Notes under the pieces: model-generated
What the model was told of the DNA's origin: nothing
The model's database searches: none
What the model saw: the letters and a program-made list of their open reading frames with translations, nothing else
Shown: in pieces, positions 4,468-21,147 of the stretch
How the letters are laid out: every line of letters begins with the position of its first letter
Position numbering within the stretch: position 1 is the first letter of the stretch
From: a virus
Reading direction: 5' to 3' (one strand)
Virus record (IMG/VR): IMGVR_UViG_3300022925_000218
Coordinates: 1-21,147 of that record
Length of the DNA: 21,147 nucleotides
Program-made: the position numbers and the translations under genes

Positions 4468-7400
4468 ATGGCTACAGAAGAAATAATACCCGGGTTCAGT
4501 GCTGTGCCTGTTGATGGTGCTGTAGTACAAAACTTGCCCATTAAAGAAGAAGAAGAACAAGAAAAAGTAGAAGAAGAAGTAATATCTGGATTCAGTGCTG
4601 TGCCTGTAGACTCTTCAGTAGAAGGTGTTACCCCTCCTAAATCAGAACCTGAATATATCCCCACCGAATCTCGTTTAGAAGACATACGAGAAACTCCCCC
4701 TAAACCTACGTCAATAAAAGAACTAGAACAGGATGAAGAACTAGTAGCCGAAATATTGCAATATCGTCAAGATAGATATGGAGTAGCAAAAGATGAAAGG
4801 TCAGATAGTTTGTTGTTTGGAAGAGCATTTGGTGGACAGGATTTAACTAATGAAAATGTTATTGACGATTTTATGGATAATTTTAGATTTATCAGTGGCA
4901 ATAGTATGGATGCTGCTACAGAAATATCGTGGTTAAAAGGTCTTGAGCAAAAAGAAGCGGATGCTAAAGCCTCTGGAGATATTGATAGGGCAAATGAATT
5001 TGCTGAACAGAGAGAAAGAGCACTACGTTTATATCAAAAAGCAGATAGTGTAAGAAATTTATTTGACTCTAAAAGATACGAAGGAATGAACGCATTTGAA
5101 ACTATTGCTGATATAGCAGACAACGTAACAGGAAATGTTATGGCAGCTTTTACTGACCCTTTAACAGCCATTACAGCAGGTATAGGTAGAGCAGTAACGG
5201 GTACGTCTAAAGCATTAGGAGTATCTCCATTTAGACAAGCACTTAAAGCTGCAGGAATTACCTTTGGCGTAGAAGCCGCAGGAGCCGCAGTAACAGATGT
5301 TATGGTTCAGAATGTAGAAATAGAGATGGGTGCTAAAAAAGAAGTTGACTACAAAAGAACAGCTACTGTAGCAGGCATAGGTGGCTTAACAGCAGGTACA
5401 ATTTCAGGTGTAGGTAAGTTTAATGCTGAAAAGAAAGTAGGAATTGCTACTCGTGGAGAATTAGATAAAGCATGGGAAAAGGTTAAAAAGGAACAAACAG
5501 AAGCTGCCATAAAGAAAAATGAAGAATTAAGTGGTCAATCTAACTCTATCAGAGAAAACTTAGCCAAAGGTCTTGAAAAGATTTATGGTAAAAATGCTAT
5601 ATTAAGATATAAAGAAGGACCAAACAAAGGGCAAGTTAGAGGTATAGATTCAAATGTCATTAAAGAATCTGACCAAGCAAAAGGTTTCTTTAAGAATATG
5701 AATCTTGATGAAGATGTTATAGAACCTACAATTAGTTTTGACATCTTTGAAAGAACTACGGCTGCTGTTTCAGAAATAGTTGCAGGATTAAAAGATGGTA
5801 AACTTAAATTAGTTGATGAACCTAATATAACAGGTGGAGTCACTTTAAAATCACTGACATCTCCTTTACAAAGAAAAGAACGTGTTAGTGAAAGAATGTT
5901 AAACATAACTAGTAATATGTCAGAAGAAAGCCTAGATGAAATGACCAATATATTAGGTAGATATGGTGTTACTAGAAGAGAGATAGCTGCTGCTTTATTT
6001 GTTGATGCTAGTATGGCAGGTAAAACATTAGGTAATCTAAGTGCCTTACAGAGAAATTTTACCAAGGCTGCTAGACAGAAGACAGCAGGAGAAGTGGCAG
6101 AAGAAGCTGAATCACAATCAGTAGATAGGCTAGGTACTACTTTCAGAAGATTAGAAGATTTAAGAAGATTAACACTTGTTAGTGGTGTTGCTACTGCTAC
6201 ACGTAACGCATTATCACAGACTATAAGGTCGGGTGTTGATACACTTGTGTATGGTTTTGAGTCAGGATTACATTCATTAGCAGGAACAGGTAGAAAAAAG
6301 TTTGGTTTTAAAAACACTATAGCACAATTAAAACATACTTATGGAAATCAAGAGGATGCAGCAAACATAGCACAATTTATGTTAGATGCTTTTCCTGAAC
6401 AGAAAGTAAGATTTTATAATCAATATTCAGAGGTAAAAAATACATTAGTAAAGAAAAACCCTGCTCAAGCTGCTTTGTCTAATAAACAAAGTAAATTAAG
6501 TGAGGGTACAAATCCTGTGTTAGATAAGTGGGAAGGTGCAATTACAACACTAAACTATTTTAATAGATTACAAGAAGCTCTGTATCGTAATGGTGCTTTC
6601 ACTACATCAATACAACGTCAATTATTTGACAAAGGTGTTGACATGGTAGATGTGTTAAAAACAGGTAGATTAACAGAAAACGTATCAGAAGATATGATAG
6701 CAAAAGCTGTAGATGATGCTTTAGAATTTACTTATGCTAGTCAGCCAAGATTTTCTTTATTTAGACAGGCAAACAATTTTATTGTTAAATCAGGTTTGAC
6801 ACTAGCTATTCCATTTCCAAGATTTATGTTTAAAGCTATAGAAATGACATATAATTATAATGTTACAGGTGCAGGAACTGCTTTGTTTAGAATGGGTGCA
6901 TCTAAATTAAAAGGTCAAAAGATAAGCGATGGTATGTATAGACAATTATCTGAAGGTATTGCAGGTGGTATGCCTTTAATAGCTTTAGGTTATTTACTGC
7001 GTGACCCTGATGGTGAAACAGCAGGTTCAGAATGGTACAATTTAAAAGATGGTAAAGGTAATGAGTTTGATGCTAGACCATATTTTCCCATAACTCCCTA
7101 TCTTTTAATAGGAGAAATGATACATAGAGGATTTAATCCTAAAATGGTCAATGATAATTTTGGCAAGAAAAATATATCTGAAATGATTGAGGGTTTTACA
7201 GGAACTAACTTTAGGGGTAAAGGTCCTATATCTTTAATGACTGAAGATTTATTAAGTAGTTCTACTGACCCATTGGAAATGCAAGATACGTATAATAATC
7301 TAGGTAGATATTTAGGTGAAGCTATTAGTGGATATCTTCAACCTGTTTATCAAATCGCTGATTTTGCCTCTGCTCCTGCTCAGTTAGGAATTGGAGACAC

Positions 7401-8067
7401 ATATCAAAGACAAAGAGATTATAATTCAGACCCTGAGAAGAGGGATGGCATTGAGTCTTTCTTTCAAGGTGTATTTAAGCCATTTAAATCTAGATTAGCG
7501 AGAGTAGGTGAATCTGTAGGGTTTGACCAAGATGATGTTCCTTTTAAAGAAGACCCACGATTTGAGGAAGTTCCTGAAAGAATATTACCATTTATGAAAA
7601 TAATGTTTGGAGCTACATTAAATCGTGTGCCACCTAATTATGTACAAAGATTAAATCAATTAGGTTTTACATATAGAGATTTCATGTCTAGGACTAGTTC
7701 AGCTAAAGTGGATAGATACATGAACAAAGAAATAGGTGAGGCTATGAATAGAGAAATACCTGAAGTGTTGATGACTGCAGCTGAAGAAAATCTAAGTGCA
7801 GACGAAACTGCTTCACGTGTTCGTGATTATATCAAGGTAGTCAAGCAAACTATACGTGCAGAACTAAAAGTTGGAGACACAGATGCTGCTCTAGCAGGTC
7901 TTATAAGTAGATTCAGAGGCAATTATGAAGTTACCAAAAGAACAGCACTAAAAGCATTTAAAGAAAAAGAAGGTAGAGAACCAGATTTTTTCAAAGCAGA
8001 TGATGTAAATCGCTTAATTGAACTGACTACTACTAAATCTTTCTATTCAAAACAAAGACCTAAGTAA
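4468..8067 (+). CDS. 1199-residue large virion protein, probable internal/ejection protein
   Basis: This is the largest gene of the window, with AAGGA six bases before the ATG. The N-terminus is acidic and Pro-rich and holds a duplicated motif (GFSAVPVD, near residues 9 and 41). Helical charged regions follow (about 140-210), then an Ala/Gly-rich segment that may contact membrane (about 225-320). A long central helical part lies at about 420-560. Hydrophobic patches lie near 770-800 (LTLAIPFPRFMFKAIEM) and 830-850 (GGMPLIALGYLL). The C-terminal third is charged. I see no lytic transglycosylase motif. Size, membrane-active look and last position in the structural operon fit a T7 gp16-like or other podovirus ejection protein; this is inference from architecture. 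Its stop codon abuts the convergent mazG stop with no spacer. Confidence 0.75.
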   Translation: MATEEIIPGFSAVPVDGAVVQNLPIKEEEEQEKVEEEVISGFSAVPVDSSVEGVTPPKSEPEYIPTESRLEDIRETPPKPTSIKELEQDEELVAEILQYRQDRYGVAKDERSDSLLFGRAFGGQDLTNENVIDDFMDNFRFISGNSMDAATEISWLKGLEQKEADAKASGDIDRANEFAEQRERALRLYQKADSVRNLFDSKRYEGMNAFETIADIADNVTGNVMAAFTDPLTAITAGIGRAVTGTSKALGVSPFRQALKAAGITFGVEAAGAAVTDVMVQNVEIEMGAKKEVDYKRTATVAGIGGLTAGTISGVGKFNAEKKVGIATRGELDKAWEKVKKEQTEAAIKKNEELSGQSNSIRENLAKGLEKIYGKNAILRYKEGPNKGQVRGIDSNVIKESDQAKGFFKNMNLDEDVIEPTISFDIFERTTAAVSEIVAGLKDGKLKLVDEPNITGGVTLKSLTSPLQRKERVSERMLNITSNMSEESLDEMTNILGRYGVTRREIAAALFVDASMAGKTLGNLSALQRNFTKAARQKTAGEVAEEAESQSVDRLGTTFRRLEDLRRLTLVSGVATATRNALSQTIRSGVDTLVYGFESGLHSLAGTGRKKFGFKNTIAQLKHTYGNQEDAANIAQFMLDAFPEQKVRFYNQYSEVKNTLVKKNPAQAALSNKQSKLSEGTNPVLDKWEGAITTLNYFNRLQEALYRNGAFTTSIQRQLFDKGVDMVDVLKTGRLTENVSEDMIAKAVDDALEFTYASQPRFSLFRQANNFIVKSGLTLAIPFPRFMFKAIEMTYNYNVTGAGTALFRMGASKLKGQKISDGMYRQLSEGIAGGMPLIALGYLLRDPDGETAGSEWYNLKDGKGNEFDARPYFPITPYLLIGEMIHRGFNPKMVNDNFGKKNISEMIEGFTGTNFRGKGPISLMTEDLLSSSTDPLEMQDTYNNLGRYLGEAISGYLQPVYQIADFASAPAQLGIGDTYQRQRDYNSDPEKRDGIESFFQGVFKPFKSRLARVGESVGFDQDDVPFKEDPRFEEVPERILPFMKIMFGATLNRVPPNYVQRLNQLGFTYRDFMSRTSSAKVDRYMNKEIGEAMNREIPEVLMTAAEENLSADETASRVRDYIKVVKQTIRAELKVGDTDAALAGLISRFRGNYEVTKRTALKAFKEKEGREPDFFKADDVNRLIELTTTKSFYSKQRPK
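4495..4607 (+). repeat. 17-base direct repeat in the 5' end of the large virion gene
   Basis: TTCAGTGCTGTGCCTGT occurs at 4495-4511 and 4591-4607, 96 bases (32 codons) apart and in frame. It encodes the repeated GFSAVPVD motif, separated by a Glu-rich linker, and suggests a local duplication at the N-terminus of the protein. Confidence 0.85.
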
Positions 8068-14183: not shown

Positions 14184-16226
14184 TCAGCTTACATCTTTAG
14201 TGTCAAGCCAATTATTACCTATTTTTGATTCTAATAATAATGGTACATTAAATTCTATACCCCATTTATTATTAACTAATATAGGCAGGTTTCTGTTTGT
14301 GGTTTCTATTGCACCTAATACTGCCTTTTCTTCATCAGGGTGCACATCAATCACAATACTGTCGTGTACTGTATTTACCACACAACTCTTCATAGTGTCA
14401 AGTAATTTATCAATATAAAGTAATGCCAATGGAACTATGTCGGCTGTCGCAAAAGACTGAACAGGATAGTTTTTTATCTGCGTAAAATTAGATACTCTTC
14501 CATGTTTATTTTTATATACATTAGGAAAAGAAAATTCTCTACCTGATGGTGTTTTTATAGTCTTATTAGTTACAGCTTCTTTAGCCAATCGGGAGTGCCA
14601 TAATGCAACCCCTTCGTACTTTTTTGTGAACTGTTCATAATATTTTGCTTCAGCAGACGTTCTCCCAAATCCTGTTGCTCCATAGAGGGGTGCAAAGGTA
14701 TGAGCTTTGGCTTCTTGCCTAGAAGTCTTCTGACCTGATTCCGTAATGACAGAAGCAGTGTATGCATGTACATCAAATCCATCTTCAATCTCCTTCATTG
14801 CTATTTTGTCTTGTGATAGGTAGGCAGCCGTTCTAAACTCTAGCTGTGCAAAGTCAGCTTCTAATATCTTACCACCTTCCCAACGTGATACAAATACTCT
14901 CTTAACAGGGAACGTTCCACCTCTTGGCATGTTCTGCATGTTAGGGTCTGCACCACTAAATCTACCTGTAGCTGTTCTGTGCTGTAGTAATCTCACATGT
15001 AACTTTCTATCTTTCTTTGTGTGTATCTTTATACCTTCAACAAAAGATGATAAGTAAGTTTCTACTGCACTCAATCTTCTAACTTTAGATAAGAAGTCTA
15101 CAGCATCTGTCATATTCTTAGCACGAGCTGCCCTCTCTAAAGTTTCTATATTTAATTTGGATGTAGAGAAACCATTAGCACTTGCCCACTTAGGACTAGG
15201 CGGTCTGAATCGTAAGCCTGCAACCTTATCTGTGTTTGTGAAAACGTAACCTTGACCATTACATGTTTTACATCTACTTGCTTTTGCATAAGGATTGCCA
15301 TCTACTTTCATTCTAAATATTTCTCCCTTACCCTCACAATCTTGGCATTGTTCTGCACGTGTTTTATATAAAACTTTTGTTCCTTGTATTATCAAGTTTC
15401 TAAAATCCACATCATCCATGTAAGGGTCTATTGAGTTTGCCCACTCTGTCTTATCTTTAATTTTCCTACCATAGATAACCCAAGATAATTGTTCAGGACT
15501 ATTCAAATTTATAGGAGTATCACCCATAAGATTAGCTGTATGAGCATGTAAGTCTGTATTTAATTGTCTTCTCTCATTCTCAAACTCTTTTTGCACTGCA
15601 TCTAATGCTTCCATGTTAACAGAAAAACCTCTTCTATATATACGTGCTAAACAACAAGCTACCTCATTTGTAAGTAACACTGTGTTTAACAGAGGTGAAT
15701 CACTACTACTATTTAATCTTACATATAATTTATCAGAGAGTTCCTTGGTAGCATGTAAGTCTGCACTCAGATAATCACTTAGCTCTTTATGGGGTATATC
15801 TCTAGTTGTATATCCCTCACTAAAGTATTTTTTTAGAGTACCTTCTTTTTGTGTAGCTAACTCATATCTTTCAGCACAGGCTTCAAGAGATAAAGGTTTC
15901 TTTTGACCACGTTGTAATACATACTCTCCTAACATAGTGTCAAAAACTGAACCATTGTACTTAAATCCTGATTCCCATAACCAAACTAAATCATAAGCTA
16001 TATTGTGTCCTATAAGTATAGTCGCATCATCTAATGCTTTTTGCACAATTTCATGCCCGTTTGGTGTAGGCTCTACTTCACTATGGTCAAAGGTAATTAT
16101 TGTTTCTTCATTATTAGCATTTAGCAAACCAACCATAACTAAAGAATTTGTTTCTTCAAAAGGGTCTAGGTGTAGCTTGCCATCTCTTTCTATTACAGTA
16201 TTTTCTACGTCTAATATTAATCTCAT
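14184..16226 (-). CDS. polA: family A DNA polymerase with 3'-5' exonuclease and DnaJ-like zinc finger
   Basis: This is the 680-residue replicative polymerase. The proofreading exonuclease shows Exo I D6/E8 (LDVEN), Exo II D79 (GHNIAYD) and Exo III Y152/D156 (YLSAD). The polymerase shows motif A D458 (EADFAQLEFR), motif B R503, K507, F511 and Y515 (RQEAKAHTFAPLYG), and motif C H621/D622 (VHDS). A DnaJ-type zinc finger with C294, C297, C319 and C322 (CQDCEGKG and CKTCNGQG) lies in the thumb region, near where T7 polymerase carries its thioredoxin-binding loop. This insertion marks HMO-2011-type marine phages. Motif C has Ser623 where Glu is common. The residue matching E. coli position 762 is Phe. 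The ATG shares ATGA with the GIY-YIG gene stop; AGGAG is five bases upstream. Confidence 0.97.
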   Translation of the reverse strand: MRLILDVENTVIERDGKLHLDPFEETNSLVMVGLLNANNEETIITFDHSEVEPTPNGHEIVQKALDDATILIGHNIAYDLVWLWESGFKYNGSVFDTMLGEYVLQRGQKKPLSLEACAERYELATQKEGTLKKYFSEGYTTRDIPHKELSDYLSADLHATKELSDKLYVRLNSSSDSPLLNTVLLTNEVACCLARIYRRGFSVNMEALDAVQKEFENERRQLNTDLHAHTANLMGDTPINLNSPEQLSWVIYGRKIKDKTEWANSIDPYMDDVDFRNLIIQGTKVLYKTRAEQCQDCEGKGEIFRMKVDGNPYAKASRCKTCNGQGYVFTNTDKVAGLRFRPPSPKWASANGFSTSKLNIETLERAARAKNMTDAVDFLSKVRRLSAVETYLSSFVEGIKIHTKKDRKLHVRLLQHRTATGRFSGADPNMQNMPRGGTFPVKRVFVSRWEGGKILEADFAQLEFRTAAYLSQDKIAMKEIEDGFDVHAYTASVITESGQKTSRQEAKAHTFAPLYGATGFGRTSAEAKYYEQFTKKYEGVALWHSRLAKEAVTNKTIKTPSGREFSFPNVYKNKHGRVSNFTQIKNYPVQSFATADIVPLALLYIDKLLDTMKSCVVNTVHDSIVIDVHPDEEKAVLGAIETTNRNLPILVNNKWGIEFNVPLLLESKIGNNWLDTKDVS

Positions 16227-16738
16227 TTTAACTCCTGTATTATTTCTTTTGTTTTTTCTACTGATATTTTAAACCATTCCCCTGCATACTCACTAGCTAA
16301 TTCTTTAGCTTTCTTATGAGCTTCCCCCTCTGCTTTTCTTCTATCTGTTACAGGTACAGATACTTCAACCTTATAGTCACGAAAAGGACTTGAAGTTTGA
16401 TAAGAATTACATCTGTCTTCGGTATCAACTGCCATGCCTATTTTTACCCAACCTTCCCAAGCAGGATTACTAATAGCATAAATGTATCCCTCTAAAACTC
16501 TATCTAACTTTTCAAAAGAAGAGAAAGCTGCATCATTGAAAGTTCTATAATTGCCTGCCTTATACAGAGGGTGCGATTGTGGTATATATTTTCCATTAAC
16601 ATACATTCTATTAGGATTAGAACTTTTATTATATTCAAAAGAACATTGTTTGCATTGTGTTCTATTTGTTTTCTTCCATGAAGAACTCCAATTATAATCT
16701 GTTAATTCTATATCACATGTATTACACTTTTTAATCAT
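16223..16738 (-). CDS. T5orf172-type GIY-YIG nuclease with N-terminal zinc finger
   Basis: In this 171-residue protein, C5, C8, C29 and C32 (CNTC and CKQC) form a probable zinc finger. Residues 83-160 match the T5orf172/MUG113 branch of GIY-YIG nucleases: GYIYAIS (Y85), WVKIGMAVDTEDR (K99, G101, R109), EGEAH (E137, H141) and GEWFKIS. Such proteins nick or cut DNA and are often free-standing, homing-like genes in phages, but here both ends are tied to neighbours by ATGA overlaps (helicase stop, polymerase start), which argues for an integrated gene rather than a recent intruder. It may take part in DNA processing or exclude competing phages; the target is unknown. Confidence 0.85.
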   Translation of the reverse strand: MIKKCNTCDIELTDYNWSSSWKKTNRTQCKQCSFEYNKSSNPNRMYVNGKYIPQSHPLYKAGNYRTFNDAAFSSFEKLDRVLEGYIYAISNPAWEGWVKIGMAVDTEDRCNSYQTSSPFRDYKVEVSVPVTDRRKAEGEAHKKAKELASEYAGEWFKISVEKTKEIIQELK

Positions 16739-18842: not shown

Positions 18843-19760
18843 TTATACACTTTCTTTGTCGGCATTTGTTATGCTTGTATCATGCTTTTTTCGTTCTGTC
18901 AATGCAAAATTTGCACTAATTAAAGTATTTTTCATGTAAGGTTTAACACTATTAGGGTTAGAGTGCCCTGTTACTGACATAATTTGCCCTATTCCTACAC
19001 CTGCATCCACCATTTCTGTCGTACCTGTCCTTCTTAGGTCAGACAGTCGCAACTCGTCAGATAAACCTGCCTGTTGCATTAGTTTCCTAGCAAATACAGG
19101 CAGTTTATGTAGAGAATAAGGTCTGTATTCACCCTTTATAGCTTTTGGTCTTGGTGCAACATACTTTTGGAAGCCAAAGTCTTGCTCTTGTTGCCTTAAC
19201 ATATCAAATAAGTCATCATCAATAGGTAAATATACATCTGCTTTACGTTTTGATTGCTCTATGTGTACTGTTTGCTTATCGAAGTCTATTGCAGACCATT
19301 CTAGTAACCTCATATCTCCTAACCTTTGACACCAAGCATATGCCATGTGACCAATGATACCTAAATTACGGGTGTTAAAATCGCTGTATGCAGTATCTAA
19401 AAACTTTTGGACATCTTCTCTAGCCCAAACTACCTTTCGCCTCTCAGAGACCCTCTTACGTATACTAGCGAAAGGATTAACATTACATAGCTCCTCTCTG
19501 ATACCGTGATTAAAGACAACTCGTGTGACTGACATAACATGATTAGCCATCGGTACACCTTTCTCACACCAAATGTTATATGCAGTTTTTGCATAACGTG
19601 TGGATAACTTAGTGTAGTCGTGTTTAGATAATGTCTTCTCTTCTATTTTTGTATCAAGCATTACCCCAAGAAAATATTGATATTGTTTCTTAGTTTCTTC
19701 TCGTAAGTTCTTGAAATCAAAGGATAAATAATAATCATTGACTAAGTTTTTTAACTGCAT
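18843..19760 (-). CDS. int: tyrosine recombinase / phage integrase
   Basis: The protein has 305 residues from ATG 19760, which has AGGA eight bases upstream; a TTG ten codons further up (19790) is a weaker start. The N-terminal part is a SAM-like, core-binding helical domain (to about residue 105). In numbering from the TTG frame, the catalytic set is R156 (CQRLGDMR), K181 or K183 (EQSKRKADVYLP), R253 (LSDLRRT), H276 (TGHSN) and Y285 (KPYMK). Box II carries Ser250 where His is usual; substitution there is tolerated in many active relatives. It probably integrates the phage into, and excises it from, the host chromosome. It sits within the replication operon between early genes and primase. 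No attachment site or tRNA-like core is visible nearby, and no repressor is seen. Confidence 0.95.
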   Translation of the reverse strand: MQLKNLVNDYYLSFDFKNLREETKKQYQYFLGVMLDTKIEEKTLSKHDYTKLSTRYAKTAYNIWCEKGVPMANHVMSVTRVVFNHGIREELCNVNPFASIRKRVSERRKVVWAREDVQKFLDTAYSDFNTRNLGIIGHMAYAWCQRLGDMRLLEWSAIDFDKQTVHIEQSKRKADVYLPIDDDLFDMLRQQEQDFGFQKYVAPRPKAIKGEYRPYSLHKLPVFARKLMQQAGLSDELRLSDLRRTGTTEMVDAGVGIGQIMSVTGHSNPNSVKPYMKNTLISANFALTERKKHDTSITNADKESV

Positions 19761-20076
19761 CTTGTCTTTCCTTTTTGTTTTGTTCGGCAAATCTATTTAG
19801 AAATCTTGTAACAAAATCTTCTATACCATTACTATGATAATGTTTCTCATAAGCACGTTGTCTTCTTGCCCATCTGCCTGTAGTCCAATAATAAACATAT
19901 TCTTTTGCTTCATCATTAGTAATCCAAAGCATAGAGGCAGGAATATTTACCATGTAATCTATTTTATTATCTTGTAAATATTTTTCAACAAATTCTAGAG
20001 TTTCATTAGTATCTTTTCTAAAAATTGCCTCACCTTTTGAATTGTGCCTAACAAATTTCCAATTATGTTTGCTCAT
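19735..20076 (-). CDS. hypothetical early protein, 113 residues
   Basis: The start ATG 20076 has AGGAG seven bases upstream; a longer in-frame extension to 20163 begins inside the upstream gene and lacks such a site. The protein begins MSKHNWKFVRHNSKGEAIFR, contains YVYYWTTGRWARRQRAYEKH (very basic and aromatic), and ends in a charged helix (FAEQNKKERQDAVKK). It overlaps the integrase start by 26 bases. No known motif is seen. The basic middle could bind nucleic acid, and its place just upstream of the integrase might make it an accessory factor, but neither can be shown from sequence. Confidence 0.7.
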   Translation of the reverse strand: MSKHNWKFVRHNSKGEAIFRKDTNETLEFVEKYLQDNKIDYMVNIPASMLWITNDEAKEYVYYWTTGRWARRQRAYEKHYHSNGIEDFVTRFLNRFAEQNKKERQDAVKKLSQ

Positions 20077-20077
20077 T

Positions 20078-20350
20078 TTATTTCTCCTTACTTTTATTGA
20101 GCAATGCAAGTGATGCAAGTTCAATACGTTTATTATATTGTAATTGATAACCTGTTCCTGCACCTAATGATTGCTTATCTATTAAGTGTTTGTGGTAATG
20201 ATTAACACTATCCCATTTCTCCTTTAGTTCCCTACATATCTCATCATACTCTATGTCCTCAATGATAGGTTCATTCATAACATAATATAAATATGAGTGC
20301 ATAAGATAGTAAGGAACTAACATATTAGTATTTGTTCTCCATATCTGCAT
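20078..20350 (-). CDS. orphan NAD+-DNA-ligase domain Ia-like small protein
   Basis: The protein is 90 residues from ATG 20350, with 81 if Met10 is used; neither has a strong Shine-Dalgarno. The segment YYLMHSYLYYVMNEPIIEDI, followed by EYDEICRELKEKW, resembles the N-terminal Ia domain of NAD+-dependent DNA ligase LigA (Y-x-Y-Y, then D-x-EYD-x-L-x-x-EL), which binds the nicotinamide part of NAD+. The nucleotidyltransferase lysine motif and all later domains are absent. A continuation HKHLIDKQSLGAGTGYQLQY is shared with small marine phage proteins that I recall. It may bind NAD+ or merely resemble it. It starts three bases after the 26-residue peptide stop. Confidence 0.7.
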   Translation of the reverse strand: MQIWRTNTNMLVPYYLMHSYLYYVMNEPIIEDIEYDEICRELKEKWDSVNHYHKHLIDKQSLGAGTGYQLQYNKRIELASLALLNKSKEK

Positions 20351-20435: not shown

Positions 20436-20963
20436 TCATTCTCCTTTCTTTTTATTTGTGTCAATATAAATTCTCATATGAGATGATTCATGTAAGCCTT
20501 GACCCCAATATGTAGCACCTGTACCTCTCAATTCAGGTTTAATATGCTGTCCTCTTACTCTCATCTTGTATGAGTCCTTGTTAAGATACTTCTTCATAGT
20601 GTCAACAAACTCCTGACCATCTGTGTCGTTAGGTATCTCGCTGAATACATAGTTGCAACCTTTTCTAGATTGGCTTCTCATAACTGCTTCATATGTTTGT
20701 TTATCAACCATGTTCATGGCTTTCTCTTTCCACATGTCACGTTCCCTTGCTAATTTGGATATCACATCAACAGTTAATTGATTAGTTAATTTACGTTCTT
20801 GATGTCTAAATGCTCTAACTAAATGTATTACATCCATATCTGCAATACGTATTGGTTCATCATGGTTTGTAGAGTGATGCTCTACTTCATCTAACTCGTA
20901 CATATCAGCAGGTAGCTTATCATCTACTGCTTCTAATATTTTAACTAACTGTTTTACTTTCAT
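20436..20963 (-). CDS. conserved early phage protein, 175 residues, unknown function
   Basis: ATG 20963 is used because AGGAG lies seven bases upstream and the ATG shares ATGA with the upstream stop; an in-frame ATG seven codons further up (20984) lacks this. The protein begins MKVKQLVKILEAVDDKLPAD, has a central charged helix (NQLTVDVISKLARERDMWKE) and a C-terminal block with strand-like segments (GATYWGQGLHESSHMRIYID). No catalytic motif is recognised. I recall unnamed relatives of the C-terminal block in marine phages. Its position near the promoter-proximal end of the - strand operon suggests an early role, such as host takeover. Confidence 0.72.
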   Translation of the reverse strand: MKVKQLVKILEAVDDKLPADMYELDEVEHHSTNHDEPIRIADMDVIHLVRAFRHQERKLTNQLTVDVISKLARERDMWKEKAMNMVDKQTYEAVMRSQSRKGCNYVFSEIPNDTDGQEFVDTMKKYLNKDSYKMRVRGQHIKPELRGTGATYWGQGLHESSHMRIYIDTNKKKGE

Positions 20964-21147
20964 GCTATCTCTCCTTCTAGCCATTTTGGTTTAGTTGTAT
21001 AGTTATATCTAGCGAATCTCATCTTGTCAACTCTGTAAAATGCTCTATATGCTTCGATAGGAAAGTTCTCATCTGTCTTCAAGTCATCATGCCCACTAAA
21101 ACATTGTGGGTGGGGTGTCATAAAGTTCTTCCAATCAGGTACAAACT
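20960..21147 (-). CDS. 3' part of an early gene (partial)
   Basis: An open frame enters from the right edge and ends at TGA 20960, overlapping the next ATG (ATGA). The 61 visible residues include FVPDWKNFMTPHPQCFSGHD, DENFPIEAYRAFYRVDKMRF and the end KPKWLEGEIA. The aromatic-rich pattern GHDDLKTDENFPIEAYRAFY looks conserved, and I think I have seen it in other marine phages, but I cannot name a family. The start and most of the gene lie outside the window. Confidence 0.65.
   Translation of the reverse strand, partial: FVPDWKNFMTPHPQCFSGHDDLKTDENFPIEAYRAFYRVDKMRFARYNYTTKPKWLEGEIA

Follow-up and report, generated by a model that had tools for sequence, protein, structure and literature searches.

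The window, that is, the whole stretch of DNA that was analyzed, is a virus record of 21,147 bases and a fragment. On its minus strand, at positions 20078-20350, it encodes a protein of 90 amino acids that includes SYLYYVMNEPIIEDIEYDEI as residues 19-38. The ORF matched the Pfam family PF22745 (Nlig-Ia) with an E-value of 3.1e-16 and 60.2 bits against a cut-off of 27, residues 12-88 of the protein aligning with positions 13-90 of the 92-position profile. PHROG 19233 (E 9.7e-23) as well as PHROG 6466, labeled 'DNA ligase' (E 1.7e-9), also matched, and a phmmer search against the PDB placed LigA chains at the top (E 2.5e-4, residues 9-47). Among 19 close relatives the median dN/dS was 0.14 (range 0.04-0.36) for 141 of 171 pairs, the remaining 30 lying beyond the divergence range used, which identifies the ORF as a real gene under purifying selection. 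The profile match, the AlphaFold2 model described below and the dN/dS values characterize it as a solo Nlig-Ia ORF of subtype A, a free-standing domain of the phage type with a match far beyond chance. A sequence-only reading of this DNA had described an orphan LigA Ia-like domain of about 90 residues with no nucleotidyltransferase gene in the window, and both statements were confirmed, the former by the profile score and the end of the ORF at 90 residues, the latter by the absence of the ligase families PF01653 and PF01068 from the window at E ≤10. As a candidate LigA the protein carries no adenylation domain (PF01653), and the Ia part is followed by an H-x-H-K motif and an A-G-T-G turn instead of LigA-like sequence.

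By gene content and gene order, the window classifies as a fragment of an HMO-2011-type marine phage. Its DNA polymerase shares 69% identity with the counterpart in Puniceispirillum phage HMO-2011 and 65% with those of the Roseobacter phages CRP-1 and CRP-345, and the genes are ordered as in HMO-2011 (integrase, primase, helicase, polymerase, endonuclease, ribonucleotide reductase and MazG). The Ia gene lies within this early region, separated by one small gene from the phage integrase gene (18843-19790, minus strand; PF00589, E 2.7e-17; 59% identity to the HMO-2011 integrase) that marks the HMO-2011-type early module. The next gene downstream (19735-20076, minus strand, 113 residues, ATG at 20076) had no Pfam match at E ≤0.01; its AAGGAG sits inside the 3' end of the Ia gene, and translation of the two genes is likely coupled. 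The upstream gene (20436-20984, minus strand, 182 residues) matched no family above the cut-off and is conserved beside Ia within the same phage lineage, its neighbor cluster comprising 27 loci, in 24 of which it is the first or second called ORF on the upstream side. PF22745 was not matched in HMO-2011 or CRP-345, and the 11 marine phages whose polymerases are closest (12 records) were absent, by organism tally, from the 70 phage records found with the window protein by tblastn at E ≤10 (60 of them listed, many with weak E-values). This absence makes Ia an accessory gene in the lineage of the window.

Several other features of the window were observed. A T5orf172-domain protein (16223-16738, minus strand; PF10544, E 7e-12) is encoded between the helicase and DNA polymerase genes, which directly adjoin in HMO-2011, and looks like an inserted GIY-YIG-type endonuclease. 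A 53-residue gene end at 20960-21121 (minus strand) likely belongs to a gene extending beyond the window, and a longer relative (L089:660-1292) matched the pyrimidine dimer DNA glycosylase family PF03013 (E 3.9e-5). Two large plus-strand ORFs (488-2623 and 4468-8067, encoding 711 and 1199 residues) had no PHROG match at E ≤1e-5 and are presumably structural. The plus- and minus-strand genes converge near position 8067.

Relatives of the solo domain

Solo Nlig-Ia proteins are common in phages. Such domains were described computationally in 81 phages by Iyer et al. 2022 (PMC9503650), who report that these phages are without a ligase, with one exception, and that the ligand residues are conserved. 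The window protein is an additional case of this published phenomenon; the orphan status assigned by the earlier reading therefore stands in that no ligase partner was found, but not in the sense of a lone oddity. Among the literature matches listed, PMC9503650 is the only one that treats solo Nlig-Ia, and no experimental function was found in the titles and abstract beginnings of the open-licence literature searched. What is added here are at least 482 IMG/VR stretches encoding relatives, a split between solo proteins and LigA in a tree, a distinct second half and a fusion to a helicase.

From the stretches confirmed in the IMG/VR alignment search, 80 loci were kept, and the identical search of GTDB contigs gave four loci. 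A tblastn search with a subtype B query found 235 phage records at E ≤0.01, and a few short PF22745 frames also occurred among 142 genomes surveyed for LigA-length matches. The distinct proteins extracted from the loci numbered 110 for subtype A and 30 for subtype B; in the subtype A set, the fragment L029 gave no match, Ia was absent from L030 and L031, and L001 was excluded as a copy of the window. LigA Ia stretches were usable for 25 of 27 LigA loci, with L218 and L222 excluded.

The search for a ligase partner covered 28 records, consisting of 12 phage records with Ia, two HMO-2011-type records without it and 14 IMG/VR contigs. PF22745 was matched in 26 of these, 22 above the cut-off, and neither PF01653 nor PF01068 in any. 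Both families were likewise absent from all 17 phage records with the domain (16 stand-alone and one fused), which comprise the 12 subtype A records as well as ReqiPoco6, phiEco32, Amyev, pEa_SNUABM_9 and RGL3, with Rollin labeled as partial. The true LigA of Serratia phage Moabite, used as a positive control, was detected at E 1.6e-92. For the window itself, being a fragment, the absence of a ligase domain does not extend to the whole genome.

A tree of 69 columns was calculated from 45 of the 110 subtype A proteins (chosen in locus order with near-copies removed), 30 subtype B proteins and 25 LigA Ia stretches. All solo proteins were split from LigA Ia with a support of 99/100, in a tree with unsettled bootstrap and flagged long branches in which subtype A requires two changes. 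This split argues against host LigA having been truncated repeatedly in recent times and fits the suggestion made by Iyer et al. (PMC9503650) that the separate domains may be old.

Two side observations concern individual relatives. A subtype B solo Ia (L150) was found in genome G015 (also L072), which holds LigA as well as a subtype A solo Ia, and the solo loci of this genome are perhaps located on phage or prophage contigs. Proline-/arginine-rich tails with repeated VRTRxRP or RRVRRR-like ends were present on the solo Ia proteins L034:3959-4648, L043:3941-4552, L038:3965-4378 and L042:3932-4378; the window protein is short and without such a tail. Binding of nucleic acid by the arginine-rich tails is possible.

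Ligand pocket, second half and predicted fold

The NMN-contacting positions Tyr22, His/Tyr23, Asp32, Tyr35 and Asp36, a list from work on E. coli LigA, carry the same numbers in the window protein by coincidence. Conservation marks the corresponding LigA-type NMN pocket at residues 22-36 (20243-20287, minus strand), and Tyr22, Tyr23, Asp32, Tyr35 and Asp36 are all present in the window protein. Among the 110 distinct subtype A proteins, with gaps excluded, Tyr22 was found in 106/106, Tyr23 in 105/106, Asp32 in 109/109 and Asp36 in 110/110, and position 35 was aromatic in all 106 that fitted the position pattern, the four misfits being excluded. Loss of the aromatic and Asp contacts, named by the sequence-only reading as evidence against its proposal, did not occur, since Tyr22, Asp32 and Asp36 were invariant wherever the column was filled. 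All 25 LigA stretches have Asp at position 36. Subtype B retained Tyr22, Tyr23 and Asp32, while its position 36 was Gln in 18, Asp in 11 and Ser in one of the 30 proteins. Phage ECBP2 was a match of the subtype B query (phiEco32 type). The ECBP2_0056-type solo Nlig-Ia of Iyer et al. 2022 has the stand-alone Ia, the LigA-type ligand residues and, within the fragment that the window covers, the absence of a phage ligase in common with the window protein, but the latter belongs to subtype A, with its constant Asp36 and H-x-H-K motif.

AlphaFold2 modeled the window protein with a pLDDT of 94.7 and a pTM of 0.87, with helices predicted at residues 8-24, 32-44, 52-56, 59-64 and 74-89. In a Foldseek search of the PDB, LigA chains occupied ranks 1-6 with 44-70 aligned columns and weak E-values, the best match being 5tt5 (E. 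coli LigA with NAD+, E 0.67). VIA-align placed 7k72_B (M. tuberculosis LigA with NAD) at the top with a Z of 5.7, an rmsd of 3.6 Å and 63 aligned residues; the 17 highest of 19 rows were LigA (Z 5.7 to 3.3), and unrelated rows reached at most 2.4. With Z below 8 and weak Foldseek E-values, the fold match depends on support from the sequence match. Comparison of a predicted structure with LigA Ia had been proposed by the sequence-only reading, and in the model no departure from an Ia-like fold is apparent. Against predicted viral proteins, Foldseek returned near full-length matches, five of them at E ≤0.001 and the best at E 3.8e-7 with a TM of 0.89; among those named are proteins from Pseudomonas phage SM1 and from a Rheinheimera phage.

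The likeness to LigA is confined to the first half, where the helical hairpin and the NMN-contact positions are shared with domain Ia of 7k72, 5tt5 and 1dgs, and the LigA-like character claimed earlier holds for this half but not for the second, which is unlike the sequence following Ia in LigA. LigA continues into the adenylation domain. The window protein instead has H-Y-H-K-H at residues 51-55 (20186-20200, minus strand), the H-x-H-K motif of phage subtype A identified by conservation, then an A-G-T-G turn at residues 64-67 (20150-20161, minus strand) that falls within a loose G-[ST]-G-like signature shared by the two solo subtypes, and a C-terminal helix at residues 74-89 (20084-20131, minus strand) assigned from the AlphaFold2 secondary structure. 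This helix remained unaligned in VIA-align rows 1-16, in which the LigA alignments stop at model residues 57-74; row 17 (3sgi, Z 3.3) stops at residue 80. Because H[MY]HKHLI was one of the two IMG/VR search patterns, a count of H-x-H-K over all 110 proteins would be biased, and conservation is therefore given for the 58 of 110 proteins without it: His51 was present in 57/58, His53 in 53/58, Lys54 in 55/58, Leu62 in 57/58 and Gly65 in 56/58. The H-x-H-K motif was found in none of the 25 LigA Ia stretches, and the loose G-[ST]-G-like pattern in 91/110 subtype A and 28/30 subtype B proteins compared with 0/25 LigA stretches. In the survey of 142 genomes for LigA-length frames (109 with a match), the PF22745 match stopped no later than position 58 in 51 of the 58 best-scoring rows, and none among the rows listed extended beyond 71. 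Among 26 matches of solo proteins, 16 extended to position 70 or further, 11 to 80 or further, and 10 stopped early. The second half of the solo proteins differs from the LigA sequence after Ia.

Genomic neighbors and helicase fusion

The neighbors of Ia, analyzed with a crude longest-ORF caller, vary by lineage, the type of the window being the early integrase-primase module. A baseplate-hub cluster was found beside Ia in 13 loci (one member tested). Ia directly precedes a primase-helicase gene in three contigs, two of which are closely related, as well as a single-subunit RNA polymerase gene in one contig, and follows thymidylate synthase in pVa-21. Six genomes selected by size and annotation, one of them covered over 50 of its 62 kb, had their nearest core replication gene 175 to 2,844 bases from Ia when one genome was treated as circular (Fisher p 0.003). 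If that genome is treated as linear, its distance becomes 29 kb (Fisher p 0.011); both p values are post hoc and uncorrected. No polymerase, primase or replicative helicase was annotated within about 4 kb of Ia in six of 12 subtype A phage records (TM16, I4, RcZahn, Rollin, MAR10 and L338C), with only hypothetical proteins nearby in Rollin.

The protein gp102 of ReqiPoco6 (L158:2944-4569) consists of Nlig-Ia (112.9 bits at residues 16-101) followed by an SF2-type helicase part. The latter matched DEAD at E 0.0013, under the Pfam cut-off, and shares about 70% identity with proteins annotated as DNA helicases in Gordonia phages. ReqiPepy6 gp102 has the same Ia-helicase fusion, both being Rhodococcus phage proteins of 541-542 residues. 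Like the window protein they contain a phage-type Nlig-Ia without a ligase domain, and unlike it they are fused to a helicase. In the main text of PMC9503650, the gp102 fusion was not found and 'helicase' occurs twice, in other contexts. The helicase part of gp102 also weakly matched PbeA in PADLOC (E 1.9e-5). ReqiPoco6 gp102 is annotated as 'DNA ligase' but had no ligase domain match.

Two clusters point toward DNA glycosylases. A Pyr_excise-type cluster comprised 18 loci, with 17 located two to four ORFs upstream of Ia, and its sole member tested, on L089, matched Pyr_excise at E 3.9e-5 with 24.4 bits against 23. A DUF7178 cluster (L063:4352-4951 and its relatives; PF23802, phrog_3842) lay on the upstream side of Ia in 18 of the 110 loci compared, in 16 of them as the nearest called ORF, and has relatives in 142 phage records. 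DUF7178 is predicted to have a DNA glycosylase fold, based on a model from six sequences with a pLDDT of 83.8. Rows 1-6 of its Foldseek search were 8-oxoguanine and 3-methyladenine DNA glycosylases (best E 0.11), followed by unrelated helical proteins, and all 50 VIA-align rows shown were DNA glycosylases, which we take to be of the HhH-GPD kind, with 3knt_D at the top (Z 11.6, 172 residues; helical models may reach Z 13 from arrangement alone). A DUF7178 relative was annotated as N-glycosylase/DNA lyase in one of 30 phage records listed, and a PDB profile search gave nothing notable (best E 1.5). In the reciprocal search, subtype A Ia was present beside 13 of 80 DUF7178 loci and a subtype B match in one more; at least 500 bases downstream were visible in 61 of the 67 loci without subtype A. 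The association is therefore lineage-specific, DUF7178 does not define the function of Ia, and a general link between Ia and DNA glycosylases was rejected.

Possible roles of the solo domain

Our tentative preference is that the solo Ia protein is an NAD+-dependent accessory factor of phages that lack a ligase and make use of the LigA of the host, and that it is tied to DNA metabolism or to this LigA. The observed parts of this proposal are the domain identity, the conserved pocket, the different second half, the 17 ligase-less records and the purifying selection. Initial recognition of NAD+ by subdomain 1a has been suggested for the LigA of H. influenzae (PMC5052709), and a free Ia could accordingly bind NAD+ or NMN. 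The pocket in common with LigA would most likely hold the NMN end of NAD+, or NMN, and the phage-specific second half with its H-x-H-K motif, A-G-T-G turn and C-terminal helix probably stands in for the LigA adenylation domain and may provide ligand contacts that this domain makes in LigA. Phages without a ligase presumably rely on host LigA, and our guess is that solo Ia could relay the cellular NAD+ state during infection, either to host LigA or to a partner in DNA metabolism. The gp102 helicase fusion and the adjacency to primase-helicase, RNA polymerase and predicted glycosylase genes, as links to DNA metabolism, speak for such a factor, while the weak PDB fold scores, the non-general glycosylase link and the six of 12 records without nearby replication genes speak against it. 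If NAD+ gating of phage DNA metabolism is true, NAD-depleting bacterial immunity would be tied to phage replication.

The accessory distribution suits a role in host conflict equally well. Iyer et al. 2022 (PMC9503650) propose sensing or shielding of NAD+, according to which the protein would report or protect NAD+ that is depleted by the NADases of abortive-infection defense. The patchy occurrence, with Ia missing from the marine phages with the closest polymerases and from most DUF7178 slots, is in its favor. On the other hand, an NAPRTase-type salvage gene was found in none of the 17 phage records, PADLOC matched neither of the two solo proteins scanned, and a lone sensor requires an effector, none of which is constant beside solo Ia. 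Cellular NAD+ is in the millimolar range. Shielding by stoichiometric binding at that concentration is implausible, and sequestration of NAD+ by mass action, suggested for a free module by the sequence-only reading, was rejected on these grounds. We consider such a defense-related role a possibility of lower rank and favor the accessory factor over it, a choice that the data do not decide. The two subtypes, the conserved residues outside the pocket and the helicase fusion offer concrete constructs and mutants for distinguishing NAD+ sensing from roles with host ligase or repair.

A broader version of the accessory-factor proposal, which we regard as rather unlikely, would make the solo proteins an old, virus-only family of NAD+/NMN-gated regulators instead of cut-down ligases, which the extra half makes complete as ligand-binding proteins and which switch a DNA-metabolism partner according to the NAD+ state of the cell under infection. 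This partner would be the helicase in gp102 and elsewhere possibly host LigA or a repair enzyme.

Still less probable is a modulator of host LigA, also raised by the sequence-only reading, that docks in trans on the LigA adenylation domain and inhibits or activates the enzyme. The retained Ia pocket in phages without ligase domains would be consistent with it, and a parallel idea was put forward for jumbo phages, whose stand-alone DNA-binding domain of ATP-dependent ligases occurs without a known ligase and might recruit host ligase (PMC7824862). That domain is unrelated to Nlig-Ia and binds DNA rather than NAD+. A free Ia would compete with the tethered Ia of LigA, and the second half is unlike LigA. 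Ligase-less phages presumably use host LigA, and an inhibitor, which would damage a phage depending on it, is therefore unlikely; the inhibitory form of the earlier suggestion fits poorly. The authors of the jumbo-phage survey reportedly overlap with those of the solo Nlig-Ia study.

Binding of NAD-capped RNA ends, with the NMN end of the cap in the pocket and the RNA held by basic tails of some members, is very improbable: several relatives have Arg-rich tails, but the window protein, judged by its residues, has just a short lysine-rich C-terminus. The poorest candidate, a split phage ligase with Ia as one subunit and a catalytic part from another locus, would suit a fragmentary window with a partner outside it, but was rejected for the 17 phage records tested, which contain neither PF01653 nor PF01068, and both families are also missing from HMO-2011 and CRP-345.

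Solo Ia proteins are often annotated as 'DNA ligase'.
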